From positions 7,750,001-7,814,000 of the forward strand of contig NZ_BJHV01000001.1 of NCBI RefSeq assembly GCF_005405925.1: 64,000 nucleotides of DNA, read 5' to 3'. The position numbers and the translations under genes were made by a program. Under the pieces are notes generated by a model. That model worked only from the letters and a program-made list of their open reading frames with translations, was not told where the DNA came from and searched no databases. Below, in pieces: positions 6,257 through 49,441 of the stretch. Each line of letters starts with the position of its first letter. The first letter of the stretch is position 1. This stretch comes from Streptomyces antimycoticus (GTDB taxonomy: Bacteria; Actinomycetota; Actinomycetes; Streptomycetales; Streptomycetaceae).

Positions 6257-6299
6257 CCCGGGGGACGCGCTGTACGGGGAGCCCCCTGACGCGGGCGCC

Positions 6300-6512
6300 C
6301 CCCGAGGCGCCCCCTTACACGGGAGGCCCCCCGAGGCGTCCCCTTACACGGGAGGCCCCCCGAGGCGTCCCCTTGCGCGGGCGCCCCCGAGGCGTCCCCT
6401 TACACGGGAGGCCCCCGAGGCGTCCCCTTACACGGGAGGCCCCCCGAGGCGTCCCCTTGCGCGGGAGCCCCCCGAGGCGCCCGCTTATCCGGGAGCCCCC
6501 CGAGGCGCCCCC
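6300..6512. repeat. Minisatellite: eight copies of a 28-29 bp unit
   Basis: The block GAGGCG recurs at 6304, 6333, 6362, 6389, 6417, 6446, 6474 and 6502. Each copy is followed by CCCCTTACACGGGAG or a close variant and a run of C. The array fills the gap between the exonuclease stop and the stop codon of the convergent SGNH esterase gene. Copies differ at a few positions (TTACACG versus TTGCGCG), which suggests slippage plus divergence. Each unit can pair GGGAGGC with neighbouring GCCTCGG-type bases, so the array may act as a bidirectional terminator. Confidence 0.9.
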
Positions 6513-8348
6513 TTACCCCACCAGCTTCCGCAGGTCGATCGAGTCCGCCATCGCCCGCAACCCCGCGTCCCCCGGGTGCAGATGGTCCCCGCTGTCGTAG
6601 GCGGGCAGGATCCGCGCCGGATGCTCGGGGTCCCGCACCACCGCGTCGAAGTCCAGCACGGCGTCGAACACCCCGCCGCTGTCCCGGAGGAAGGCGTTGA
6701 CGGCCGAGCGCCGCGCGTCCGCGTCCGGCGTGCACAGCGACTCGCCCTCGCACGGGGCGATGGTCGCCCCGACCACCCGCAGCCCGCGCTCATGCATGCG
6801 CGCCGCGAGCGACCGCAGCCCCGCGATCAGCTCCTCGGCCGAGCTGCCCCAGCGCAGATCGTTGATGCCCTGGAAGACGACGACCGTACGGGCCCCGGTC
6901 TGGGCGAGCACATCGCGCTCCAGCCGGTGCTGTGCGCTGACCCCGCCGGTGTCCGTGGAGACGCCCTCGCCCGGATAGCGGTCGGCGACCACGCGGTTGG
7001 CGGAGATGCCCGCGTTGAGCACGCCGTACGCCGGGATCTCGGACTGCCCCCGCAGCCGGCGCGAGAGCACATCGGGCCAGCGGCGGTTGGCGTCATTGGT
7101 GGACTTGGTGCCGTCGGTGATCGAGTCGCCGAGCGCCACCACCGAACCCGGCCCGCCCCGCACATCGACCCCGGTCAGAAACGGCCAGGTGGTGAGGGTG
7201 CTGGTATAGGACTCGGCGCCCGGCTCACCGGTTCGGTCACCGCTGCCCGCCGCGCTCAGATACGACCGCTGGGTGGCCTGGCTGTGCACCGGCACCGCCG
7301 CGACCGGACCCGGCAGATGGATGCTCACCAGCAGATTGGCGTCCGCCGGAACCGGGAAGTCCACCGGATCGCTGAACGCCTGCGCGCCCGCGGGGACCGA
7401 CGTCCCCGGCCGCCCGCCGAAGGTCAGCGGCACCGGTACGCCCCGCGCCGCCGCGCCGCTCGCCTGGAGCGCGACCGTCGCATGGCCGATCTCCACGGGC
7501 GATGCGGCGAAGGTGTTCTCCATCCGGACCCGGGCCCTCGGCCCGCCCGCGCTGGTGTGCACCACCAGCCGCAGCGTCTGATCGGTCCACGGCCCGACCT
7601 TGGTGTACCCGGCGGTGCTCGCCGCCCAGCTCCCCGTCCAGCCGTCCGCGGGCTGCCGCAGCGACGCGGCGAAGACATGGAGGTCGGCGGACGGGCCCGG
7701 ATCCCTCGGCAGCACCACCGAGGCGACATCCCGGCCACGCTCCAGCGGCACCGTCACCGCGTACAGCCGGGCCGTCTCCTGCCGCTGCCCGGCGGCGGTG
7801 TTGAGATGAGGGAGCCCGACGGCCTTGGTGGCGGCGGGGCCCGCCCGCCAGTCCGGCGCGCTCAGCGTGTACGGACGGCTCGACCCGTCCCGGTAGCGCA
7901 CCGTGCCGACACCGCTCGCCCCGGCGCCGGGCCCGTCCGGTGAACTGCTCGCCACCAGGAAGGTCAGCGCCTCGCCCCGCCCGCGCAGCCGCACCGCCTG
8001 TCCGTCGGCGATCACGTTGTCGGGCCGTGCCCCCGCGCTCCTCGGCCAGGTCAGCCGCGCCGCGTCCAGGGCGATGTCACGCCCCGGGGTCCAGCCGGCG
8101 GCCCGCAGATCCTGTGCGGAGAGCGAGGAGCCCGCGCCGTCGAAGTCGGCGCCACCCGGCCGGGCGTCATCGCTGACCGCCCGGTTGTCGAAAAGCCGCT
8201 CCAGAGGGAGCGGCTTATGGGTCGGCCGGGTCGGCCGGGTCGCCTGGGTCGGCACACTGGCCGGTGCGGCGGAGGAAGGCGCGAGGAGTACGAGAGTGAC
8301 ACCTCCCGCGACGATCCCGGCGGCTGTCCAGGCTCTCGCGACGTGCAT
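6513..8348 (-). CDS. Secreted SGNH/GDSL-family hydrolase (esterase/lipase)
   Basis: 611 residues. An N-terminal signal peptide (AWTAAGIVAGGVTLVLLAPSS) predicts export. The C-terminal 230 residues hold the SGNH blocks: GDSITDG with the nucleophile Ser, an Asn in LNAGISANR, GINDLRW (block III Asn) and DHLHPGDAG (block V Asp-His). The preceding 350 residues look like a beta-rich accessory region as in Streptomyces SGNH esterases. ATG 8348 was chosen because GAGAGGGG sits just upstream; the frame is open 11 codons further. The gene is monocistronic and convergent with the exonuclease III gene. The substrate (lipid or acetylated polysaccharide) is unknown. Confidence 0.88.
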   Translation of the reverse strand: MHVARAWTAAGIVAGGVTLVLLAPSSAAPASVPTQATRPTRPTHKPLPLERLFDNRAVSDDARPGGADFDGAGSSLSAQDLRAAGWTPGRDIALDAARLTWPRSAGARPDNVIADGQAVRLRGRGEALTFLVASSSPDGPGAGASGVGTVRYRDGSSRPYTLSAPDWRAGPAATKAVGLPHLNTAAGQRQETARLYAVTVPLERGRDVASVVLPRDPGPSADLHVFAASLRQPADGWTGSWAASTAGYTKVGPWTDQTLRLVVHTSAGGPRARVRMENTFAASPVEIGHATVALQASGAAARGVPVPLTFGGRPGTSVPAGAQAFSDPVDFPVPADANLLVSIHLPGPVAAVPVHSQATQRSYLSAAGSGDRTGEPGAESYTSTLTTWPFLTGVDVRGGPGSVVALGDSITDGTKSTNDANRRWPDVLSRRLRGQSEIPAYGVLNAGISANRVVADRYPGEGVSTDTGGVSAQHRLERDVLAQTGARTVVVFQGINDLRWGSSAEELIAGLRSLAARMHERGLRVVGATIAPCEGESLCTPDADARRSAVNAFLRDSGGVFDAVLDFDAVVRDPEHPARILPAYDSGDHLHPGDAGLRAMADSIDLRKLVG

Positions 8349-9341: not shown

Positions 9342-10088
9342 ATGGCCGTCGGTGAGCCGTTGATCGAGCTGCACGGCGTCAACAAGCACTTCGGCGCGCT
9401 GCACGTTCTGCGGGACATCGAGCTCACCGTCGGGCGCGGCGAAGTGGTCGTGATCATCGGCCCCTCCGGCGGCGGCAAGTCCACCCTGATCCGGACCATC
9501 AACCGGCTGGAGACCGTCCAGTCCGGCTCCATCGTCGTCGACGGCCGGCCGCTGCCCGAGGAGGGCAAGGAGCTGGCGCGGCTGCGGGCCGAGGTCGGCA
9601 TGGTCTTCCAGTCGTTCAACCTCTTCGCCCACCGGACCGTGGTGGCCAATGTGATGCTCGGTCAGGCCAAGGTCCGCCGCCGCGGGAAGCAGGACGCCGA
9701 GCGGCGCGCCCTGGAGCTGCTGGACCGCGTGGGACTCGCCGACCAGGCCGGGAAGTTCCCCGCCCAGCTCTCCGGTGGCCAGCAGCAGCGGGTGGCCATC
9801 GCCCGCGCGCTGGCGATGGATCCGCAGGTGATGCTCTTCGACGAGCCGACCTCCGCCCTCGACCCGGAGATGATCAACGAGGTGCTGGAGGTGATGCGCC
9901 AGCTCGCCCAGGAAGGGATGACGATGGTCGTCGTCACCCATGAGATGGGCTTCGCCCGCTCCGCCGCGAACCGGGTGGTCTTCATGGCCGACGGCCGGAT
10001 CGTCGAGGACCGTGCGCCGGAGGAGTTCTTCAGGGCCCCGGAGAGCGAGCGGGCCAAGGACTTCCTGTCCAAGATCCTCAAGCACTGA
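9342..10088 (+). CDS. Amino-acid ABC transporter ATP-binding protein (GluA type)
   Basis: 248 residues. ATPase of a polar amino-acid importer: Walker [10 protein letters not shown] (40-48), Q-loop VFQSFNLF, signature LSGGQQQR, Walker [13 protein letters not shown], and switch VVTHEMG. High similarity to the GluA/GlnQ class suggests glutamate or another polar amino acid. A GTG at 9330 is an alternative start four codons upstream, but it leaves only 3-4 nt to the GGAAGG motif. First gene of the operon ATPase, binding protein, permease, permease. Confidence 0.93.
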
Positions 10089-10095
10089 GCCGGTG

Positions 10096-11017
10096 ATGAC
10101 GGACATGAGGCGGCTGCGCCGCGCGACCGCCGCTCTCGCAACGGCCCTGGCCCTGCTGCTCATGGCCGGCTGCGGCAAGGAGGGCAGCCCGCCCGCCAAG
10201 GGACCCCGGACCGAGAAGCTGCCCACCTACAAGGTGGCGACCGGCTTCCGGCTGCCCTCCTCGCCCACCTGGCGCCGGGCCGAGCGCCGCGGCCATCTCA
10301 CCGTCGGGGTCAAGGAGGACCAGCCCTATCTGGGCGAGCGGGACCCGGCCACCGGCCGCTACTCGGGTTTCGACATCGAGATCGCCCGCATGATGTCCGC
10401 CTCCCTCGGCTTCCCCCCGAAGACCATCCGGTTCCAGACCATCGCCTCCGCCAACCGCGAGACCGCGCTGCAGAGCGGCCAGATCGACTTCTACGTCGGC
10501 ACCTACACCATCAATCCGCTGCGCAAACGGCTGGTCGGCTTCGCCGGGCCGTACTTCATGGCCGGACAGTCGCTGCTGGTGCGCACCGACGAGGACGACA
10601 TCCACGGCCCCGCCGACCTCGCGGGCAGGACGGTCTGCTCGGTGGCCGGCTCGACCCCGCTGCAGCGCATCGAGCGCGACTACCCCAAGGCCCGCGCGGT
10701 CGCGTACGACACGTACTCGGTGTGCGTGGACAACCTGCTCAGCTTCCAGGTCGACGCGGTGACCACCGACAACACCATCCTGCTCGGCTACGCGGCCAAG
10801 GCCCCGAGGAGCTGAAGGTGGTCGGCCGGCCCTTCTCCAAGGAGCCGTACGGCGTCGGCGTGCCCAAGCGGGACAACGCGCTGCGCTTCGCGCTGGACGA
10901 CGCGATCCAGGTCCATGAGCGCAACGGCAACTGGAGGAAGGCGTACGAGGCAACCCTGGGCCTCTCCGGTGTGCCCGCCCCCAAGCCGCCCCCATCGACC
11001 GCTACCGCACCGGCTGA
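10096..11017 (+). CDS. Amino-acid ABC transporter substrate-binding lipoprotein (GluB type), frameshifted twice
   Basis: The reading frame from ATG 10096 starts with a lipoprotein signal ([12 protein letters not shown], lipobox Cys). It continues through a normal type 3 solute-binding fold ([37 protein letters not shown]) and then hits TGA at 10813-10815. Homologous sequence ([33 protein letters not shown]) continues in the next frame, as if one G were missing near 10803. A second missing C in the run at 10986-10993 would restore the usual ending IDRYRTG and a stop at 11015-11017. Without it the frame runs into the permease. Start 8 bp after the ATPase stop. Sequencing error is more likely than a dead gene, because the rest of the operon is intact. 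Confidence 0.85.
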
Positions 11018-11027
11018 AGGCCCTCCC

Positions 11028-11672
11028 ATGGACGTGCTCACCCAGAACTTCTCGCTCTACGGCAAGGGCTTCCTCGGCACCGTGGAGCTGACCGTCTACG
11101 CCTCGCTGCTCGCCCTCGCGCTCGGCATCCTGATGGCCGCCTTCCGGGTGGCGCCGGTCGCCTCGCTGCGCGCCTTCGGCACCGCCTGGGTGACGGTGCT
11201 CCGCAACACCCCGCTGACGCTGCTGTTCTTCGCGGTGATGCTGGGGCTGCCGCGCTTCGGTCTGGTGCTGCCGTTCACCGTCTTCGCGGTGATCGCGCTC
11301 GGCTGCTATACCTCGGCGTTCATCTGCGAGGCGGTGCGCGCGGGCATCAACACGGTGCCGGTGGGGCAGGGCGAAGCGGCCCGCAGCCTGGGCATGACGT
11401 TCGACCAGACGCTGAGCGCGGTGGTGCTGCCGCAGGCGTTCCGCTCGGTCATCCCGCCGATCGGATCGACCTTGATCGCGCTCGCCAAGAACTCGGCCAT
11501 CGCCGGGTCGTTCAGCGTCACCGAACTGCTCGGCACCTACAAACCCCTCAATGAGCGGGGCTACAGCATCATCTGGTCCTTCGTCTGGATCGCCGCCGGG
11601 TATCTGATCATCACCCTCGCCATCAGCGCGATCTTCTTCCTGCTGGAGCGGCACTGGGGAGTGCAGCGATGA
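11028..11672 (+). CDS. Amino-acid ABC transporter permease (GluC type)
   Basis: 214 residues with about five transmembrane segments. HisM/GluC landmarks: LTVYASLLALALGILMA, RNTPLTLLFF, and the EAA loop EAARSLGMTFDQTLSAVVLPQAFR. It forms the membrane channel with the next gene product. ATG 11028 (MDVLTQNF) was chosen: it lies 10 bp after the reconstructed stop of the binding protein. The longer upstream frame is the frameshifted tail of that gene. The stop overlaps the next start by 4 bp. Confidence 0.9.
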   Translation: MDVLTQNFSLYGKGFLGTVELTVYASLLALALGILMAAFRVAPVASLRAFGTAWVTVLRNTPLTLLFFAVMLGLPRFGLVLPFTVFAVIALGCYTSAFICEAVRAGINTVPVGQGEAARSLGMTFDQTLSAVVLPQAFRSVIPPIGSTLIALAKNSAIAGSFSVTELLGTYKPLNERGYSIIWSFVWIAAGYLIITLAISAIFFLLERHWGVQR

Positions 11673-18326: not shown

Positions 18327-20213
18327 ATGGGGCACGCCGTACGACCAGCCGCATCGTCAACCACGTCCACCACCCGCGCGTCCGCGGCGGCCGTCCGGCG
18401 CCGACTGCCCGCGCTGGCGGCCGCGGCCGGAATGGTCGCGGTGCTGGGCGTCGTCCCGGCCGGCGCCGCAGGGCAGGAGCAGGACGACACCGCGAAGCCG
18501 GCTCCCGGCAAGACGCCCGTGGCCGTCGGCTATGGCGGCGCGGTCTCCAGCGTGGACGCCGACGCCTCGGCGGCCGGGATCGACGTACTGCGGCACGGGG
18601 GCAACGCGGTGGACGCGGCGGTCGCGACCGCCGCCGCGCTCGGGGTCACCGAGCCGTACTCGGCGGGTGTCGGCGGCGGTGGTTACTTCGTCTACTACAA
18701 CGCCAAGCGGCACAAGGTCTCCACGCTCGACGGCCGCGAGACCGCGCCCCGCAGCGCGGACTCGAAGCTCTTCCTCGGCAAGGACGGCAAACCGCTGCCG
18801 TTCGCCGACGCCGTCACCAGCGGGCTGAGCGTCGGCACCCCCGGCACCCCCGCCACCTGGAACGACGCCCTGAAGGACTGGGGCACCCGCTCGCTGGGGC
18901 AGGTGCTCAGGCCCGCCGAGCGGCTGGCCCGCGACGGGTTCACCGTCGACAGCACCTTCCGTCAGCAGACCGCCGACAACCAGGCCCGCTTCAAGGACTT
19001 CCCGGCCACCGCCAAGCTCTTCCTGCCCGGCGGCGAGCTCCCGAAGGTCGGCTCGACCTTCCGCAACCCCGACCTCGCCCGTACGTACGCGCTGCTGGCC
19101 AAGAAGGGCGTCGGCGCCGTCTACAAGGGCGAGCTGGGCCGCGACATCGTCGACACCGTGCGCAAGCCGCCCGTCGACCCGAAGGCGCAGCGCGTCGTGC
19201 GCGCGGGCGATCTGACGGCCGAGGACCTGCGAGCCTACGGAACGAAGCGGCAGGCCCCGACCCGGACCGCCTACCGCGGTCTGGACGTGTATGGCATGGC
19301 GCCCTCGTCCTCCGGCGGGACCAGCGTCGCCGAGGCGCTCAACATCCTGGAGCGGACCGACCTCTCCAAGCTCAGCGACCTCGACTATCTGCACCGTTAT
19401 ATCGAGGCCAGCCGGATCGCCTTCGCCGACCGGGGCCGCTGGGTCGGCGACCCCGCCGCCGAGGACGTCCCCACCAAGGGGCTCACCTCACAGCGGTTCG
19501 CCGACTCCCGGGCCTGCCTGATCAAGGACGACGCGGTGCTCAAGAGCCCCGTACCGCCCGGTGACCCGAACAGCCCGTCCGCACCCGGCTCCTGCGACAC
19601 CCGTGGCCACGCCGCCCCGACCACGTACGAGGGCGAGAACACCACGCATCTCACGGTCGCCGACAAGTGGGGCAATGTCGTGGCCTACACCCTCACCATC
19701 GAGCAGACCGGCGGCAGCGGGATCACCGTCCCCGGCCGTGGCTTCCTGCTCAACAACGAGCTGACCGACTTCTCCTTCGCGCCCGCCGACCCCGCCGTCC
19801 ACGACCCGAACCTGCCGGGCCCGGGGAAGCGGCCGCGCTCGTCCATGTCGCCGACGATCGTGCTGGACGGCCACCAGCCGGTGCTGGCGCTGGGCTCCCC
19901 GGGCGGGGCGACCATCATCACCACCGTGCTGCAGACCCTGCTGAACCACCTCGACCGGGGCATGCCGCTGGTCGACGCGATCGCCGCACCGCGCGCCAGC
20001 CAGCGCAACGCCGCCCAGACGGAGCTGGAGCCGGGGCTGTGGAACGGCCCGGAGCGCGCCAAGCTGGAGGCGCTCGGCCACTCCTTCAAGCAGAACCCCG
20101 AGATCGGGGCGGCCACCGGTGTGCAGCGGCTGTCCGGCGGACGGTGGCTGGCCGCGGCCGAGACGGAACGGCGGGGCGGCGGCTCGGCGATGGTGGTCAG
20201 CCCGAAGCGCTGA
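18327..20213 (+). CDS. ggt: Gamma-glutamyltransferase, secreted
   Basis: 628 residues. It transfers or hydrolyses gamma-glutamyl groups, for example of glutathione or poly-glutamate. A long basic/Ser-Thr leader and signal-like helix (PALAAAAGMVAVLGVVPAGAAG) predict export. The Ntn-hydrolase cleavage site TTHLTVADKWGN places the catalytic Thr at residue 439. The glycine-rich oxyanion region LALGSPGG and the SSMSPTIV stretch are present. The precursor would split into about 438- and 190-residue subunits. TTGGAGG lies 6 nt before ATG 18327. Single-gene unit. Confidence 0.94.
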   Translation: MGHAVRPAASSTTSTTRASAAAVRRRLPALAAAAGMVAVLGVVPAGAAGQEQDDTAKPAPGKTPVAVGYGGAVSSVDADASAAGIDVLRHGGNAVDAAVATAAALGVTEPYSAGVGGGGYFVYYNAKRHKVSTLDGRETAPRSADSKLFLGKDGKPLPFADAVTSGLSVGTPGTPATWNDALKDWGTRSLGQVLRPAERLARDGFTVDSTFRQQTADNQARFKDFPATAKLFLPGGELPKVGSTFRNPDLARTYALLAKKGVGAVYKGELGRDIVDTVRKPPVDPKAQRVVRAGDLTAEDLRAYGTKRQAPTRTAYRGLDVYGMAPSSSGGTSVAEALNILERTDLSKLSDLDYLHRYIEASRIAFADRGRWVGDPAAEDVPTKGLTSQRFADSRACLIKDDAVLKSPVPPGDPNSPSAPGSCDTRGHAAPTTYEGENTTHLTVADKWGNVVAYTLTIEQTGGSGITVPGRGFLLNNELTDFSFAPADPAVHDPNLPGPGKRPRSSMSPTIVLDGHQPVLALGSPGGATIITTVLQTLLNHLDRGMPLVDAIAAPRASQRNAAQTELEPGLWNGPERAKLEALGHSFKQNPEIGAATGVQRLSGGRWLAAAETERRGGGSAMVVSPKR

Positions 20214-38745: not shown

Positions 38746-41700
38746 CTATGTTCCGGCCCCGGGGAACCCCTCCGCGACCAGCGCCGCGAGATCGAGGTAG
38801 GCGTCGAAGGTCCTGGGCGCCAGTTGCTCGAGGTCGATTTCCCTCCCGGCGGCCACATGGTCGTCGTACGGCACGACGACCACGTCGCGGCAACGGGCCC
38901 GGAACTCCGTGACCGGGTCTTCCCTCGGGTCGGGCTGGGATGTCTCGTGTGATGTGCTGATCACGGTGATGGCGTTTCGTGCCAGGTCCGCGTGGCCGTC
39001 CTCGGCCAGCCGGTCCAGGATCGTATGCGCGCTGTTCGTGAGTTCCGCGGACGGGGTGGTGACGATGATGAGCTGGTCGGCGAGGTCGAGCACGCCCCGC
39101 ATACCGGTGCGGGACGCGCCGGCGTCCGAGTCGGCGAGAATGATCGAGTAGTGCCTGCTCAGCACACCGATGACGCGGCGGTACTCCTCGTTGGTGACCG
39201 GGACTCGCGGGGTTCCCAGGCTCCTTTGGTCATAGTCCCCCGCGAGGATCTCGAGTCCGGACGGCTTCTGCGTGGTGAATTGCTCCAGGGACGCATGGTC
39301 GTCCGAAAGCGGATCGCTGTGCGCCAGATCACGGATGGTCGCCCTGGTCTCGTGCCGAACGCGACGGGTGAGACCCCGGCCGCCGGGGATCGCGTCGACC
39401 GCGAGGACGTGCTCCTCGCGCTCGCTCGCGAAGATGGCGCCGAGCGCGAGGGTCGTGGCGGTCCGCCCGACCCCGATCGGGTGACTGATCACCGCGATGC
39501 GGTGGCAGACCGCCAGGTCCCTCAGGATCACCTCCCGTTTACGTTGCCGCCGGGCACTTCTGCCGAATCCGGCGTTCCGGAGAATGGTCGTCAGGCGGCT
39601 GGGGCGCGCGGCGCGGGCGGGCGGGTCCTCGGGCTGTGCCGGAAGCGGCACCTGAGGGCCGGGGACGGGCGTCTCCGGCGCCGGGTCGTCCGGGGGTTGG
39701 GCGCCTGTCGGGAGTTGGGCGTCCGTCGACTCGAGCTCGTACGGCGTCTCGTGGCCGAACGTCGGCGTGGTCGTCAGGCACTGGACGAAGACGTCCGCCA
39801 CCCGCCCCGCCGACGGGCGCCTGCCCGGCCGGTCGTCCAGACAGGCGGAGATGGTCGAGAGCAGCTCGGGGTTGCGCCACAGGTCCATGGTGCGGATGAG
39901 CTCACCGGTCGGCTGCGCGTCGCTCAGATCGCGGAGGATCTGGCCCAGGGCGTAGACGCTGTCCGCGGCGGTGGGAGCGCCCGGGAGGCGGTCGCCGACA
40001 CTCGCCTCGGTCCAGCCGATCAGCTTCACCGTGCTGTCGGTGACGAGCACGGTGTCCGCCGTCAGGGGCCCGGGCACGACGCCCTTGAGCGAGCACATGT
40101 TCACCGCCTCGGCGATGCGGAGGCCGATGGTGGCGGCGCGCTCGGCGTCCAACCGGGGCGAGCCGTCGGGCCTTCGGCCCATGAGCGAGGACAGCGGTGG
40201 GGCCGGTGAGCCGTCGGGCAGCCGGACGCATTCCACCACGAGCCCCGGAGGGTTGAGCGAGGAAGCGTCGACGAAGAGCCGAGGGGCGTAGTGCCCGGCC
40301 ATCCGCCGCAGCGCGTCCGCCTCGGCCCGCAGTCGCCGCCCGATCCCCTGGGCGGTGCCGCCAGGGGCGACGCGTATCACCACATCGTTAGACGCGCCCG
40401 GCCGACGGGCCAGATAGACGCCGTACCCCTGACTGCCGCCCAGCCTGCGGTAGGCCCGATACGCGTTGATCGACGGCAGGCCGCTCTCGGGCTCCGGGCG
40501 GGAGGCGCGAGCGGAGTCGGGTGGCGCCGACGATGGCGGGGTCGTCAAGATATCCGAACCGCAGGTATCGCAGAAGCGGTCGTGTGGGGCAAGCGGACTG
40601 CCGCACTGCGCGCAGACGATGGGCCGCTCGGTCCGGGGGCGTCGGGCGCGGGGCTCCGGTGTTCCGGCCTCCGGCCGGAAGTGCATGAGGAACTCCCAGA
40701 CCTCGTGCGCGGTGTGGCCGTGGGGCCTCTCCCGGCACGACATCACCAGGGTGCGGAGCGGCTCCCAACCGGCACTGCTCCAGCGCGGCATGAAATAGAG
40801 CCCCGGGGCGGGCCGACGCGTCGGCGCCCCGCCGCCGAGGCTCACCAGGATGTCGCCCAGCGCCCTGACGTTGTGCTCGGGGTCGGCGGGCGGTCGCCGC
40901 CGAGTGCCGGGGACGGCACACCGTCGATGGACGCCGATGACCAGCCGGTCAGGAGGATGTCCGCCCCGGCGACATGCACTGTGCTGATGGTGAGGTCACC
41001 GTGCACCATGCCCGCCTCCTCGGACAGCCGCACCGCGTCCGCGACTTGGCGGGCGAGCGCGAGGGCGGTGAGCCCGTCCCACCGCCCGGGGTCGGTAAGG
41101 GCGGCCTCGTCCAGCCGGTCGTCCCAACGCTCGGCGTCGCCGCGCAGGACGTCCAGCCGGTCGTCCCATCGCTCGGCATTGCCGCGCAGGACGTAGTCCA
41201 GCCGGTCCCCGATGAGGGCTTCCTCCGCGAGCCACGGAACGTCGTCGCCCAGCCCCGTGCGCAGCAGACGGCGGGTGTAGCGCCCGTCCATCCGGCGCAG
41301 TGCCTCCGCCTCCACGCCCAGCAGGTCGGCGGCCCGCTGTCCGCGCAGATGGCGGGCGATCCGGACGATGGCCACCGCACCGTAGGCGTCCTGGCCCAGA
41401 AAGGGATTGACCCGCGCTCCCGGCGGCCCGGCCATCGTCAGCCGGTACGGCCCGAGCACGTATGGGTCACCGGGTTCCGGGCGGCGCCACTCCTGCGCCG
41501 CGGTGGGGGTCGTGAACACCGACGGCTGCGGTGGTGCCCCCAGCCGGGCCGCCAAGCGTTGCTCCACCGCCGTGAAGGGGCGGGCGCCGGGCGGGAGTTG
41601 GTCGCTGCCGGCAGTGTGGGCCAGCCAGGCCGGGAAGTCGGGGGAGCGGCCCGCCAGTTGCTCAAGACGGCGGCCGATCAGCCGGCTGGTCGCGACCAGT

Positions 41701-43327
41701 TCGGACAGCGGCACCGCGCCCAGCAGGGCCCGCTGCGCCGCGTCGGCGAAGGCGAAGGGACGGTGTTCGGGCGGCAGCGGGTCCGGTCCCGCCGAGGCGG
41801 GCGGTGCGACGGGGCGCATCAGGCCGCCCAGGAACACCTCGGCGAGACGTCCGGTGTCCGTCCGGCCGTCCACCGCCTTCTGCACCATCCGCATCACCGG
41901 CACCGGCAGTGGGGCCACGGCGGCCAGATGGGCCGCCAGCCGGTACGCCTCCGGGGACGCCGCGTCCCGGAAGCGCTGGACACGGCTCAGCTCATCGGCC
42001 GGGGCGGGGGTAGCGGCCGGGCCGGGGACGGTGGTGGCCGGGGCGGGGCGGGGGCCGCCGCGCCCCGGGTCCAGCAGCGGCAGGACGGCCGTACCGCTCG
42101 CGGAGGCGATCAGCCGGGCCCAGTCGGCCAGCGGCCCGGCGTCCGGTTCCAGCACCGGCACCGGCACCCCCTCGAAACGCGCCAGGGCGGCGGGCAGCAC
42201 CGGATCCGCGACCGTCCAGTCCGTATTGGCCGAACCCGGTCTGCGGGTCCGCACCTGCCAGCGCCGCGCCCGGATCCCGGAGCCCTCCCACAGCCGGGGC
42301 GGCAGCGCGTGCACCACCGCCGTGGGGCCGACCCCCGCCCAGCGCGCCAGCACCTGGCCCATCCGCCCGTCGCGCCACGCGGGCCCCACCCCGTCGCTCA
42401 CCACGAGCACCAGCGTGTGCCCGGAGGGGTCCGAGAGCGCTGTCGCGGGGAGCCTGGGCGCGTCCGGGGCGTAGGGCCGGGCGCGCAGCGCGGGGGCGGC
42501 GGTGCCGCGCGTGTGCAGACCGAGGACGCGTACGACGCGGAACGCGCCCGAGCGCTGCAGTACGGTGCGCAGTTCGACGGCGAGCCGCCGCCACAGCAGC
42601 ATCGACATCCCGTCGTCGATGACGAGCGCGAGATCGAGCCAGCGCTCACGGGCGGGGCGGGTCACCACGTCCGGCAGACCGGTCTCGGCGAGCGCCGTGG
42701 CGGTGGCCGCCTCGTCGAACTCCCGCTTGAGCGGATTGGGGCGGTGCTGTTTCAGCGGGCGCAGGGCACGGCCGATGGACAGCTCCTGGCGCAGCGCCTT
42801 GTCCTCGGGCACGCGCAGCGGCAGTGCCCGCCGCGCGTCGGGCGCCCCCTCCGTATCGGGGCCCTGGCCTCCGCCGTACAGGCCGCGCAGCCGCTGATCG
42901 CCATGGGGGCGGGGGCGCGGCCGGTCCGGCGGATCGTCCGGATACGCCTCGGCGGGGCCGGACGGCTGGGCGCCGGGTGCGCAGTGATCGGCCCGATGCG
43001 GGAGAGGGGCGGGCGTGGCCGGTTGGGCGGTCGGCTCGGGGTCCGGTGGGCGGGCGTGGCGGGGGAGGCCGGGGCGGCGGAGGAGCGGGTGGATACGGGG
43101 GGCTCGGCGGGCAGCGCCGTCCCGCCGCCTGTCACCGCGCGGGCCAGGGGCGCCCGCTCCGCATCGTCCTCGGGCAGCCGCCCGGCCAGCCAGAGCGCGT
43201 CGAGCAGCTCCTCCCTGGAGAGTTCGAGACCGCTGGAGGCGAGGAGCGCGATGGCCTCATCGAGTCGTCCCAACCGCTCGGCGCCGCCCTGCCCCGCGCC
43301 GCCCCGCCCAGCGTCACCCCGGCTCAT
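38746..43327 (-). CDS. Giant SAV_2336/vWA-pseudokinase-zinc ribbon-MinD-like fusion protein (two frameshifts)
   Basis: Three consecutive frames read as one protein of about 1,527 residues if one base is restored near 43043-43050 and one near 40883-40890. In order: helical SAV_2336-type N-terminus (LDEAIALLASSGLELSREELLDALWLA); Pro-rich linker; vWA-like region (about 225-390; WLDLALVIDDGMSMLLW, HTLVLVVSDG); helical region; degenerate kinase fold (about 620-880; HGDLTISTVHV instead of HRD...N, no DFG); zinc ribbon CAQCGSP...CDTCGSD (about 900-925); second kinase-like fold without HRD or DFG (about 950-1190; VPGPLTADTVLV); Pro-rich linker; MinD/ParA-like domain (about 1270-1510) with altered P-loop SHPIGVGRTATTL. 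ATG 43327 follows the AAA+ stop by 6 bp. Last gene of the four-gene operon; likely its signalling or sensor platform. Confidence 0.8.
41109..41195 (-). repeat. 42-bp in-gene duplication in first pseudokinase
   Basis: Units 41109-41150 and 41151-41192 differ at few bases and encode LRG[D/N]AERWDDRLDV twice in the first kinase-like domain. A partial third copy (GTCCAGCCGG) follows after a 3-nt insertion. Confidence 0.85.
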
Positions 43328-43333
43328 GCGTCG

Positions 43334-44329
43334 TTACACCGCCCCGCCCAGCCGGTGCAGCACCGCTTCCAGGAGTCCGTCCGCCGTCACGTCCATGCCG
43401 CCCGCCCGCAGGAACACGGCGTTCAGCAGCTGATCGGTCGCCAGCTCGCGGGCCGCGCGCCGACGGAGGAAGGCGTCCAGCAACTGGTCGACCTCCTCCA
43501 GCGCGTCGTCCCCCAGATGGGCGGTGACGATCGCCCGCAGCCGCCCCTCGTCGGGGGTGGGCAGCTCCAGCCGTACGCAGCGGCGCAGGAAGGCGGGCGG
43601 GAAGTCGCGCTCGCCGTTGCTGGTGATCACCACGACCGGGAACTCCTCGCACACCAGCCGGCCCCGACGCACCGTGGCCCGCTCGCCCGCCCGTGCGGTG
43701 AGCACCTCCACCACCGATTGGTCCTCGGGCAGCCGGGCCAGCTCGGGAATCTCGAACTCGCCCTCCTCGAAGACGGTCAGCAGGTCGTTCGGCAGGTCGA
43801 CATCGCCCTTGTCGAGTTCGTCGACGAGCAGCACCCGGGGGCGTTCGTTCGGCACCAGTGCGGTGCCCAGCGGCCCGAGCCGTACGAAGCTGCCGATGTC
43901 GGGCTCGGTCTCGCCACGGTCGCGCGTCAGGGCCGTCTCGCGCAGCCGCCCGATCGCGTCGTAGCGGTAGAGCGCGTCCTGCACGGTGGAACGGCTGTTG
44001 ACCGGCCAGCGCAGCACCTCGCCCAGCCCCATCTCATGCGCGATCGCCCGCGCGAGCGAGGACTTGCCGGTCCCCGGGCTGCCGGTGACGAGCAGCGGGC
44101 GCCGGAGGTGGAGGGCGGCGTTGACCACGTCGGCGTGTTCGGGCGAGATGAGATACGGCGCCGGGCCGGACGCGGGCGACCCCTGCGCGTTGTCGGGGGC
44201 TCCCGTGTCCGGGGCCGCCTGCTCCCCGCCGCCGAAGCGGCGCCACGGCGGGGCGGGTGGCATCTCCACGCGCCGGGGCACACCGTCCCCCCGGAACAGC
44301 CGCCAGTCGTGCCGTTCCCGTGGATTCAT
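43334..44329 (-). CDS. MoxR-type AAA+ ATPase of the conflict operon
   Basis: 331 residues. AAA+ chaperone-like ATPase: Walker A GSPGTGKS (83-90), Walker B VLLVDELDKG (166-175), FEEGEFEIPE (MoxR/RavA hallmark), sensor 1 VVVITSNGERD, arginine finger region FLRRCVRLELP. The C-terminal helical lid is typical. ATG 44329 was chosen for the upstream GGGAGG; the open frame to 44569 lacks coding character. It sits between the protease gene (100-bp gap) and the giant vWA-like gene (6-bp gap). MoxR proteins act with vWA partners to remodel proteins, which fits the neighbour. Confidence 0.9.
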   Translation of the reverse strand: MNPRERHDWRLFRGDGVPRRVEMPPAPPWRRFGGGEQAAPDTGAPDNAQGSPASGPAPYLISPEHADVVNAALHLRRPLLVTGSPGTGKSSLARAIAHEMGLGEVLRWPVNSRSTVQDALYRYDAIGRLRETALTRDRGETEPDIGSFVRLGPLGTALVPNERPRVLLVDELDKGDVDLPNDLLTVFEEGEFEIPELARLPEDQSVVEVLTARAGERATVRRGRLVCEEFPVVVITSNGERDFPPAFLRRCVRLELPTPDEGRLRAIVTAHLGDDALEEVDQLLDAFLRRRAARELATDQLLNAVFLRAGGMDVTADGLLEAVLHRLGGAV

Positions 44330-44429
44330 CGGGGAACCTCCCTTTCGGTCCGCCACAGCGGACATCGCGCTCCTCCTGCCGTCATCACGCCTCGCCGTCC
44401 CCGCCCACCACCGCCACCGCGTCCCACCG

Positions 44430-46613
44430 TCACTCCGTGGGGTCCGCGAGGTCCAGCCGTGGCAGCGCCCGCCCGGCGTCGGCCCAGGCGAGCACCGGCC
44501 GCCCGCTGTACTCCTCGGGTCTCTGCAGGGTCTTCGTGCGGTAGGTCCGTACCGCTTCGGGCAGTTCACGGGCGCTCACCCCCGCCGCGTGGCGCACGGC
44601 CGGGGATCCCTCCTCCCCGCTCCGGTCCCACAGCACCACCGGAATGCCCGCGGCGAGACACATCTGCACCACACCGGTGCGCCGGTGGGCCGCCACATCG
44701 ATGGTGACCCGGGCGGTGAGCCGCTCCATGACCAGCCCGCACACCGCCTCCGGGTCCGGGGCCGTGGCGTCGTCGATGTGCACGGGCTCCTCGGCGTCCA
44801 GCCGGACCCAGCGCTCCCGCCACTGGTCGAGCATCGTGCCGCCGTTCAGCTCCCGCAGCTCGGGGCAGTTGACGACCAGGGGGTACGGAGTGCCGAGCCG
44901 CATGGGGAGCACCGCGCCCGGCCCGGCGGCCTTCCAGCGGTCCACGGGCACCTCCAGGGCGTCCCGGTCCACGATCAGTTCGATGACGGGCCGTGGCCCC
45001 GAGGGGTCGGGGCGGCGCAGCGAGCCCACGGCGGCGAAGATCTCCTGGGCCACCTCCTCGGCACCGCGCGGCCGTTCGCTGTCGTCCGACACCTGACGCA
45101 GCCCGTCCCCGTCGTCGCACCACAGCCGCAGCCGGTACCGCTCCGGCTCCTCGCGCGCCGTCGCCGACGGGCCGCCCGATGGGGCCCCGCAGGGGTCCAG
45201 CTTCGCCACGACGCGGGGCGCGGAGCCCCGAGAGGCGCTCTGGGCCCACTGCTCGGCCTCGAGGCGGCGTTCGGTCATGGCGGCGTCATGGACGCCGAGG
45301 CGGCGGGCGACCGCCCTGTTCCACCGCCGCAGCGCGATGCGCTGGTCCGCCGGGCAGCACCCGGCGGCCACGAACTCCACGGCGCGCAGCAGGCCCGGCA
45401 CGGCCATGACCCCGTCGTCGATCGGCGAGCTGTCGCCGTGCAGCCCCTCCAGATGGGCGATCAGAGCCTCGAGCCGCCCGGCGGGGCCGGCGCCGTTCCT
45501 GTCCTCATCACCGTGGCCGCCGTCATGGCCGGTGAGCAGCACCGCGGGCAGGGCCGCCAGCGGCAGCGCGGCCCGTACGGCCCCGGGGACACCGGCCGCG
45601 GCGGCCGTGGGCAGGGCGCGCAGCAGGACCAGCAGCCGCTCGTGCTCACCCGGCGAGAGCAGCTTGGGCAGACCGCAACGGCGTCCGATCGCGAGCAGGT
45701 CGTCGGCCGCCGTGCCCGCCGTGCCGCGCACCGCCTCGACCAGCGCGGGCAGCGCACGCCCCCGGGTGAGCAGCAGATGGGCGAACTCGTCGGCGGAGGG
45801 CACGCCGTCCGCGCGATGGCCGAGGCCGCACTGCCGGGCGACCGCCCGGCAGGAGCGTATCCAGCCCTCGGACAGCGGCAGCGGCCCGTCCAGCAGGGAG
45901 ACCAGCTCCGCGTAGCCCGGGTGGTCGCGTACGTCCTCCTCGGGCTGAGGTGGCAGCAGATGGCCCGCCCCGGCGTCGTGCAGCTCCCGCGCCACGCGCT
46001 GCCAGGGGATCCCCCAGGCGCGGCGCAGCGTCCCCTGGATGCGGAGCTTCGCCGTCACGAGCCCGACGACGGCGCCCTCCTCGTTGGACCACAACGGGCC
46101 GCCGCTGTAGGCCGGTTCGATGTCCAGGGCGCGCTCGGCGCCGTCGAAGTAGCCGAACCGCCCGTCGCATTCGCTCACTTCGGCATCGGCGAAGACCCCT
46201 GGCTCACCGCTGCCGTGCCAGGCCCGTACGAGCTGCCGCTGCGCCATCGGGTGCCAGCGCGGCGGCTCGATCGCGGGCGGCAGAGTGGCCGACAGCCGTA
46301 GCACGGCGAGGTCGCCGTTCCACTCGAAGGCGCCCAGGCCGCCGTCGTCGGTCCGGGGAGGTATCCATACCGCCAGCTCGGCCTCGGCCTCGACGGTGTG
46401 CTCCGGTCCGTGGAGCCGTACGGGAACGGCGATCGGGCCCGGGTGATCCGGGGCCAGCCGGTCCTTTCCGAGGGCGCTGTTGACCACATGAGCGCAGGTC
46501 AGCAGATGGCGGCGGGGCAGCAGGACGCCCGCGCCCGCCGGTTTTCCGTCGGCCTTGGCGAGAATGGATACGGCGGGCCGCGACAGGGACCCGTGCGCGT
46601 GGAACCACCCCAT
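44430..46613 (-). CDS. Trypsin-like serine protease with VMAP-C-like C-terminus
   Basis: 727 residues, no signal peptide, so cytoplasmic. Residues 1-220 form a trypsin-like domain with triad H42 (LLTCAHVV), D101 (WNGDLAVLRL) and S170 (AYSGGPLW). A helical middle (about 225-430) follows. The C-terminal 250 residues (RYRLRLWCDDGDGLRQV, IELIVDRDALEVPVDRWK, YPLVVNCPELREL, RWVRLDAEEPVHIDD, AGIPVVLWDR) match what is described as the vWA-MoxR-associated protein C-terminal domain (recognised by eye). Three bp after the Trypco1 stop, so tightly coupled. A likely regulated protease effector or switch of the system. Confidence 0.88.
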   Translation of the reverse strand: MGWFHAHGSLSRPAVSILAKADGKPAGAGVLLPRRHLLTCAHVVNSALGKDRLAPDHPGPIAVPVRLHGPEHTVEAEAELAVWIPPRTDDGGLGAFEWNGDLAVLRLSATLPPAIEPPRWHPMAQRQLVRAWHGSGEPGVFADAEVSECDGRFGYFDGAERALDIEPAYSGGPLWSNEEGAVVGLVTAKLRIQGTLRRAWGIPWQRVARELHDAGAGHLLPPQPEEDVRDHPGYAELVSLLDGPLPLSEGWIRSCRAVARQCGLGHRADGVPSADEFAHLLLTRGRALPALVEAVRGTAGTAADDLLAIGRRCGLPKLLSPGEHERLLVLLRALPTAAAAGVPGAVRAALPLAALPAVLLTGHDGGHGDEDRNGAGPAGRLEALIAHLEGLHGDSSPIDDGVMAVPGLLRAVEFVAAGCCPADQRIALRRWNRAVARRLGVHDAAMTERRLEAEQWAQSASRGSAPRVVAKLDPCGAPSGGPSATAREEPERYRLRLWCDDGDGLRQVSDDSERPRGAEEVAQEIFAAVGSLRRPDPSGPRPVIELIVDRDALEVPVDRWKAAGPGAVLPMRLGTPYPLVVNCPELRELNGGTMLDQWRERWVRLDAEEPVHIDDATAPDPEAVCGLVMERLTARVTIDVAAHRRTGVVQMCLAAGIPVVLWDRSGEEGSPAVRHAAGVSARELPEAVRTYRTKTLQRPEEYSGRPVLAWADAGRALPRLDLADPTE

Positions 46614-46616
46614 GGC

Positions 46617-47063
46617 TCAGGCCGAGGGACCGGGCCGGGACGGCTGTGGCGGCTGTGGCATCTGCGGCGGCACCGTCGGCTCGGGCTGCTCCGACGGCCT
46701 CCAGGTGGCCGAGAGCGTCAAGTTGGCGTTCCCATTGGCACCCACGATGCCGAGTTTCAGGTCCTGGCCGACCTGCACCCCGAACTGCACGGTGAACTCC
46801 TGCGGCGGATGGGGAGTCGAGCGGACGGCGTCGTGCACGTCCTCCAGCACCGACCCCAGCCCTTGGAGGATGACGCCCAGACTGGCGTTGGCGAGGGCGG
46901 CCGCGGCCTGCGCACCCCGCCCCACCGGGGTCACGCCACCGACGCCGCCGTACGCGTCCTCCAGGGAGGCATCCCCCACGGGAGCCAGTTCCAGCCGTAC
47001 GGTGGTGCCGTTCGCCAGGGGTATCTCACGGTGTTCCGTCACCTTCCTCATCATGCCGATCAT
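46617..47063 (-). CDS. Trypsin-co-occurring (Trypco1-like, CU044_2847 family) small protein
   Basis: 148 residues. An N-terminal beta strand (EIPLANGTTVRLEL), a central helix (AAAALANASLGVILQGLGSVLEDVHDAV) and a beta hairpin (EFTVQFGVQVGQDLKLGIV...NANLTLSATW), then a Pro/Gln tail. This order is that of Trypco1 proteins, which neighbour trypsin-like proteases. Start uncertain: ATG 47063, 47054 and 47051 are all possible, and the frame opens at 47099. First gene of the operon; divergent from ada/alkA at 47205. It probably binds and regulates the protease encoded 3 bp downstream. Confidence 0.82.
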   Translation of the reverse strand: MIGMMRKVTEHREIPLANGTTVRLELAPVGDASLEDAYGGVGGVTPVGRGAQAAAALANASLGVILQGLGSVLEDVHDAVRSTPHPPQEFTVQFGVQVGQDLKLGIVGANGNANLTLSATWRPSEQPEPTVPPQMPQPPQPSRPGPSA

Positions 47064-49337: not shown

Positions 49338-49441
49338 CCCTTCGAGCCCGGGACGCCCTTCGAGCCCGGGACGCCCTTCAAGCCCGGGACGCCCTTCAAG
49401 CCCGGGACGCCCTTCAGGCCCGGGACCCCCTCCGAGCCCGG
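49338..49441. repeat. 18-bp tandem repeat, six units
   Basis: Units CCCTTCGAGCCCGGGACG at 49338, 49356, 49374, 49392, 49410 and 49428 (last partial). A/G changes occur only at one or two positions. Each contains CCCGGG. It fills the space between convergent ogt and sirtuin genes and probably acts in termination. Confidence 0.92.

Follow-up and report, generated by a model that had tools for sequence, protein, structure and literature searches.

A predicted VMAP ternary operon of Streptomyces antimycoticus with a protease and a MinD-like tail related to an ESX-locus ATPase

The operon considered here occupies positions 38746-47063, on the minus strand, of a 64-kb window (the whole stretch of DNA analyzed, to which all coordinates refer) from the Streptomyces antimycoticus contig NZ_BJHV01000001.1. 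It encodes a small Trypco1 protein, a VMAP protein with a trypsin-like protease domain, a MoxR AAA+ ATPase, and a vWA-type protein whose gene is spread over several open reading frames (ORFs). The four-gene layout proposed by the first-pass annotation was confirmed at the level of coordinates, including the gaps of 3 bp between the Trypco1 and VMAP genes, 100 bp between the VMAP and MoxR genes, and 6 bp before the vWA start at 43327. Domains were assigned by Pfam and NCBIfam profile searches, and models of defense systems were those of PADLOC. The features are as follows, with match E-values in brackets.

46617..47063, minus strand: Trypco1 protein, 148 aa (PF19493, 2.8e-17; NCBIfam CU044_2847, 3.3e-14)
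44430..46613, minus strand: VMAP protein, 727 aa, with a trypsin/HtrA-fold protease, a helical middle region and VMAP-C
46059..46535, minus strand: Trypsin_2 domain (PF13365) of the VMAP protein, with H42, D101 and S170 (Pfam, 1.8e-10)
44475..45143, minus strand: VMAP-C domain (PF20028, 2e-33; 116.7 bits against a cut-off of 27)
43334..44329, minus strand: MoxR AAA+ ATPase, 331 aa, with N-terminal motifs WRLFRG and PPWRRF (AAA_5, 2.5e-8)
42752..43327, minus strand: first vWA ORF, 191 aa (weak NF041121 match, 0.0046)
40842..42812, minus strand: second vWA ORF, 656 aa, with the SAV_2336/vWA module and a first kinase-like region (SAV_2336_NTERM NF041121, 4.1e-108, residues 2-388)
38746..40845, minus strand: third vWA ORF, 699 aa, with a zinc-ribbon-like stretch (below cut-off), a pseudokinase and a MinD-like domain
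39691..40491, minus strand: pseudokinase region of the third ORF, catalytic HRD and DFG sites lost (profile against PDB kinases; alignment by eye)
38758..39630, minus strand: MinD-like domain of the third ORF, with a degenerate Walker A, HPIGVGRT (48% identity to the ESX-locus ATPase of the same genome)

Both the fold and the catalytic triad of an HtrA/trypsin serine protease are present in the VMAP protein. H42, D101 and S170 lie where they had been placed; of 61 homologs, 60 have the histidine, 60 the aspartate and all 61 the serine, the single exception for the histidine and for the aspartate being an alignment gap. The VMAP-C-like tail proved to be a clear VMAP-C domain, and a VMAP-M0 match (7.6e-4) falls under its Pfam cut-off. 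The Foldseek and VIA matches listed for this protein are to its protease domain; comparison with PDB sequences gave no match at E <= 0.1. The MoxR protein has, as predicted, intact Walker A and B motifs, the Walker A lysine being kept in 60 of 61 homologs (one gap) and the Walker B DE in all 61. Its match to bpMoxR (8.1e-4) is under the Pfam cut-off, and its top NCBIfam match, MadB_ATPase (1.5e-18), scores 67 bits against a cut-off of 475. The N-terminal MoxR motifs WxhapG and PsWRxa of the family are present, with W9 in 59 and W29-R30 in 60 of the 61 homologs. The Trypco1 assignment was also upheld, and this protein is probably an adaptor or regulator of the protease. Its predicted structure (mean predicted local distance difference test score 47) is too low in confidence for interpretation, and its matches among PDB sequences have E-values of 0.21 and 0.29.

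Relatives of the operon were collected by a scan with the 656-aa ORF, using six sequence patterns, VIDDGMSM among them. It yielded 69 loci, which by their record titles belong to Streptomyces or near relatives (2 are labelled only Actinobacteria bacterium); upstream gene content was scored in 61, the other 8 starting too close to a contig end. VMAP and MoxR genes lie upstream, on the same strand and in the same order, in all 61, as in the window (VMAP > MoxR > vWA), and Trypco1 in 59, being not found in L037 and L073; the set co-occurs in other genomes. Systems of this kind, termed VMAP ternary systems, were predicted by Kaur et al. (2020; PMC7159879), whose text, as far as consulted, gives the same gene order and the N-terminal MoxR motifs, and notes that Trypco1/2 frequently accompany trypsin-type VMAPs. 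Every family feature scored was found. The initial filing under MoxR-vWA-VMAP ternary systems was right, and the sequence makes the operon almost certainly a member. It should be noted that this operon type is already predicted in print and is common in Streptomyces: of 61 Streptomyces genomes sampled, 49 have VMAP-C, in varying numbers, and none of 14 named control genomes has it.

The window's genome holds three VMAP sets, including this operon. The second (L090:3440-11421; C1, about 3.645 Mb) contains a gene with a caspase domain and another that is alpha/beta-hydrolase-like but scores below the Pfam cut-off. The third (L091:5257-13892; C1, about 9.13 Mb) comprises a PNP_UDP_1-EAD2 protein and an EAD2-VMAP protein, with an NB-ARC/TPR protein taking the place of vWA; its VMAP-C is spread over two frames. 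The operon itself sits between hemC and an ada/alkA-like gene, a site common to a group of relatives. hemC lies just downstream in 15 of the 69 loci, 11 of which also have the ada/alkA-like gene upstream; the other four (L017, L023, L033 and L080) have little or no sequence upstream. This shared site, together with the role of several known MoxR-vWA pairs in enzyme maturation or assembly (according to the consulted text of PMC7159879), could be taken to favor a housekeeping maturation chaperone instead of a conflict system. We regard that as quite improbable: VMAP-C is not in all of the Streptomyces genomes and varies in number, two other sets with different enzymes exist in the same genome, and the vWA tail diverges fast, with decaying P-loops. 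For example, in the near relative L018, identity to the window is 83% for VMAP, 88% for MoxR and 80% for the second vWA ORF, and it falls to 60% for the third.

The giant SAV_2336/vWA protein of the first-pass annotation stands as regards its N-terminal module but not as a single protein, since the region 43327-38746 consists of three ORFs in three frames (191, 656 and 699 aa). Within the module, the MIDAS aspartates D66 and D140 of the 656-aa ORF are each present in 66 of 69 rows, with 3 gaps, a count that is partly circular because VIDDGMSM was itself a fetch pattern. The close relative G055 has a single ORF of 1619 aa in the syntenic position, 94% identical to the window's third ORF. In L017 (S. 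niphimycinicus), the vWA frame is open for 1421 codons from the contig end. Most relatives keep one vWA frame, with shorter frames in L032, L081 and L083; for this reason, programmed frameshifting is unlikely. The vWA gene may be broken, or the assembly may carry indels. Nucleotide comparison with G055 revealed frame-changing differences both in the vWA gene and elsewhere, e.g., in the transporter region 10722-11672, a pattern compatible with either case. In that part of the window (9940-11672), an ORF for a solute-binding protein overlaps a BPD_transp_1 permease ORF, and the frame-changing differences from G055 hint either that one of the two assemblies carries indels or that the transporter gene is broken.

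Because the gene is split, the copy in the window may not work. That the locus is in this strain a decaying remnant, which has lost its vWA frame and no longer functions, is in our judgment nearly an even chance. The contrast between three frames here and one in G055 points that way, as does the third VMAP gene of the genome, also extending over two frames. On the other hand, the frame-changing differences elsewhere in the window make assembly indels possible, and the other three genes of the operon are intact and retain their key residues.

Read by eye, the vWA tail consists of successive domains separated by proline-rich stretches. Its proposed kinase-like fold was recovered by a profile of 36 sequences (the window and 35 relatives), which matches PDB protein kinases (best 2.1e-9); 8 of the 36 match PF07714, but the window's own copy has no Pfam kinase match. 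In the second kinase-like region, the only one scored, the HRD and DFG places read, by eye, GPLTADTVLV and IGW. Comparison with PDB sequences yielded no match at E <= 1 for the 656-aa ORF and a weak MinD-type match (0.0053) for the 699-aa ORF. The MinD-like fold, also claimed from the first, is weak in Pfam (AAA_31, 0.037) and becomes clear on comparison with a MinD/ParA-family ATPase encoded in the same genome, 48% of 291 aligned positions being identical; the likeness reaches upstream of the P-loop. The signature of active MinD/ParA proteins, KGGxGK[ST], is absent from the window's domain.

This second protein is free-standing, with proline-rich flanks and a canonical KGGVGKTT motif. It has 625 aa (L089:7853-9730) and is encoded in one ESX (type VII secretion) locus together with EccE and EccB, a subtilase, and a WXG100 gene. 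MoxR and vWA genes were not seen next to it, but no search aimed at them was made in that locus. In the window's genome, PF13614 finds 12 places at E <= 0.01; among the 18 of 48 first-look candidates that were scored, the ESX-locus ATPase is the only one, besides the query itself, to match the third ORF at E <= 0.001. When the third ORF was searched against 61 Streptomyces genomes, 58 had matches (best E in each <= 1.6e-68), mostly confined to the MinD-like region, at 47-52% identity. EccB and EccE lie near the free ATPase in 8 of 12 Streptomyces regions, including that of the window's genome, but not in L106, L109, L113 and L114; thus, the free ATPase also occurs without these secretion genes.

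The free and fused domains differ sharply in their P-loops. All 12 copies of the free set have KGGVGKTT. In the fused set, which comprises the window, G055 and 63 of the 69 loci (n = 65), the Walker A GK[ST] is absent from 62 copies and the lysine from 61; GK[ST] persists in L032, L047 and L081 (the last with an otherwise changed loop), and L077 keeps the lysine alone, as judged by eye. Alleles at the hemC site range from a near-fresh copy with an intact P-loop to worn copies: among the 7 of 16 that were compared, identity to the free ATPase is 87% in L032, 69% in L047, 63% in L035, 51% in the window, 50% in L033, 49% in L018 and 46% in L025. The domain lies within the vWA frame in L035 and L047. 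In L032, there are two separate, overlapping frames, and fusion is therefore not shown for this locus.

A tree of 84 rows was built from the 65 fused copies, the 12 ESX-type copies, and 7 other ParA/MinD-like rows of the window's genome; it omits L098 (no usable row), L102-L104, and L005 and L006, which duplicate the window and G055. Of its 12 free copies, 9 were checked for linkage to secretion genes and 7 are linked. The free copies form one group (Shimodaira-Hasegawa-like approximate likelihood ratio test, SH-aLRT, 87), which adjoins L032, L035 and L047; a careful tree of 40 rows leaves the order of these open. End branches, which depend on sampling, measure 0 to 0.022 for free copies as opposed to 0 to 2.0 for fused ones. 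Divergence is much greater among the fused copies at sites other than hemC, many of which are only about 28-36% identical to that of the window, and their placement rests on long branches. A generic cell-division MinD is disfavored as the source of the tail: the fused and ESX-type rows stand apart from the 7 other ParA/MinD-like rows, on a branch with an SH-aLRT of 82 and long branches. Nor is repeated capture shown. For the approximately unbiased (AU) test, 16 same-site copies were picked by hemC synteny, after a first tree had been viewed; their union in one clade is rejected (p 0.0008), but that of all 26 fused copies in the set tested is not (p 0.506).

Relatives of the free ATPase also occur on actinobacterial plasmids. 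A tblastn search with its domain matched 209 of 72,556 plasmid records, in 162 of which a single place spans 80% or more of the query. Identity is below 60% in 205 of the 209 and 81-92% in four Streptomyces records, one of them 2.8 Mb in size; one plasmid record listed (11.8 Mb) is chromosome-sized. No secretion gene was seen among the annotated features of three plasmid regions inspected, for which the gene table is incomplete. On the Pseudonocardia plasmid pFRP1-2 (L117:8887-9777), a relative of the ESX-locus ATPase directly follows two integrase-type genes. A phage collection held only 3 distant relatives (28-31% identical). Given the plasmid-borne relatives, plasmids may be named as possible triggers of the system.

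Taken as a whole, the operon is, in our opinion, explained best by a VMAP ternary conflict system armed with a protease and carrying a decoy MinD-like tail, a reading that we favor on balance and that rests on sequence comparison. Several observations speak for it. The domains and their order are conserved, and the protease triad, the MoxR motifs and the MIDAS are nearly invariant, whereas the Walker A of the fused copies has decayed and their end branches reach greater lengths than those of the free copies. Among the candidates scored, only the ESX-locus ATPase, besides the query, matched the third ORF, despite the 12 PF13614 places in the genome. The published logic of the family, with inactive enzyme domains as possible decoys, also agrees. 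In such a system, MoxR and the vWA protein would hold the protease off until an invader engages the fast-changing vWA tail, i.e., the pseudokinase and the MinD-like domain with its lost P-loop. ATP-driven remodelling would then switch the protease on, and cleavage would free the tail, harm the infected cell, or both. The MinD-like domain would be a decoy copied from the working ESX-locus ATPase of the same lineage, and P-loop loss and sequence kinship fit such a function. The earlier suggestion of protease control by the AAA+/vWA pair, with Trypco1 as adaptor, is close to the published prediction, which exists in two versions.

Kaur et al. proposed a different division of labor, in which VMAP senses, the MoxR-vWA pair transduces, and the VMAP protease cuts the vWA protein, so that the freed C-terminal domains are the effectors; here, the pseudokinase and the inactive MinD-like domain would interfere dominantly. 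This model, set out in the consulted text of PMC7159879, is a serious contender, if short of an even chance, and the arrangement of the tail as domains strung with proline-rich stretches (by eye) agrees with it. However, the tail domains look catalytically dead and the protease triad is nearly invariant, so that the protease as executioner suits the data at least as well.

Several points weigh against the decoy-bearing conflict system favored here. The tail could equally be a released effector, as in the published model. The link to secretion as such is loose, given the four of 12 regions that lack secretion genes. In 6 of the 69 relatives (L021, L058, L074, L075, L076 and L078, of which L074 is cut by a contig end), no MinD-like domain was found, so the mechanism cannot depend on it. 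A single capture and multiple captures are not distinguished by the AU test of the 26 fused copies. PADLOC matches are partial only: no defense model was matched over most of its length by the operon proteins, the hits being short ones near the MoxR P-loop (TRIP13, 1.1e-6; IetA, 8.8e-6; mad8, 1.7e-5; RtcR, 0.0061) and PDC-M28B (0.0064) on the third vWA ORF. Finally, the window's vWA gene is disrupted, which bears on the working of this copy and not on family membership.

A more specific proposal is that the vWA tail is an integrated decoy of the ESX-locus ATPase family, with which the system would guard against elements that encode this ATPase or take it over, sensing them through the dead copy and firing the protease. 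We put it forward tentatively and think it rather unlikely in this full form. If it were true, there would be a concrete partner for the dead domain to bind, namely the free ATPase in the same cell or its plasmid cousins, and the general suggestion of inactive domains as decoys would thereby become a question about two proteins. Integrated decoys occur in plant immune receptors, to which the operon would then offer a bacterial parallel. In any case, it adds one more example of a predicted immunity family of multicellular bacteria.

Three further features of the window were recorded. About six copies of an 18-bp repeat (49338-49441) lie between a methylguanine methyltransferase gene and a Sir2-like gene, and a 28-bp tandem repeat with about eight units (6281-6516) lies at the 3' terminus of a gene resembling those of GDSL lipases. 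A tRNA called by ARAGORN at 18381-18474, with an unassigned four-base anticodon, lies inside a gamma-glutamyltranspeptidase gene and is probably a false call.

Comparison with known systems places the operon closest to the VMAP systems of Kaur et al. (PMC7159879), with which, as far as their consulted text goes, it shares the components, the gene order, the MoxR motifs, VMAP-C, and a tail of inactive kinase and MinD/ParA domains. The first-pass annotation had taken a set with Trypco1 and with kinase and MinD folds in one polypeptide for an undescribed variant; this does not hold, as that paper describes Trypco1, the gene order, and vWA proteins that couple S/T/Y kinase domains with a C-terminal MinD/ParA or winged helix-turn-helix (wHTH) domain. 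It regards the kinases as mostly inactive, predicts the MinD/ParA domains to be inactive and files them under cell division; inactive enzyme domains as possible decoys are part of the family's published logic. The present operon differs from the systems described in these portions of the text in its split vWA gene and in the tie of its MinD-like tail to an ESX-locus ATPase, and neither “type vii” nor “esx” appears in the main text of that paper. A survey of the literature by title and the start of the abstract (no preprints, few subscription journals) found, among the records listed, no study presenting itself as an experimental VMAP test, and none tying the VMAP MinD-like domain to an ESX locus. 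VMAP systems diversified by diversity-generating retroelements, known from Thiohalocapsa and multicellular cyanobacteria (PMC10907252), likewise combine a VMAP trypsin, MoxR, vWA and Trypco1; in the part of that article consulted, the vWA-carrying target is the proposed sensor and the VMAP enzyme the effector. Their tails are C-type lectin domains varied by the retroelement, in contrast to the pseudokinase and MinD-like domain found here. The ESX-locus ATPase of Streptomyces, in turn, differs from the fused tail in being free-standing and in its canonical P-loop. What is new here is that the MinD-like tail appears closest to this ATPase and that the P-loop has been lost in the fused copies.

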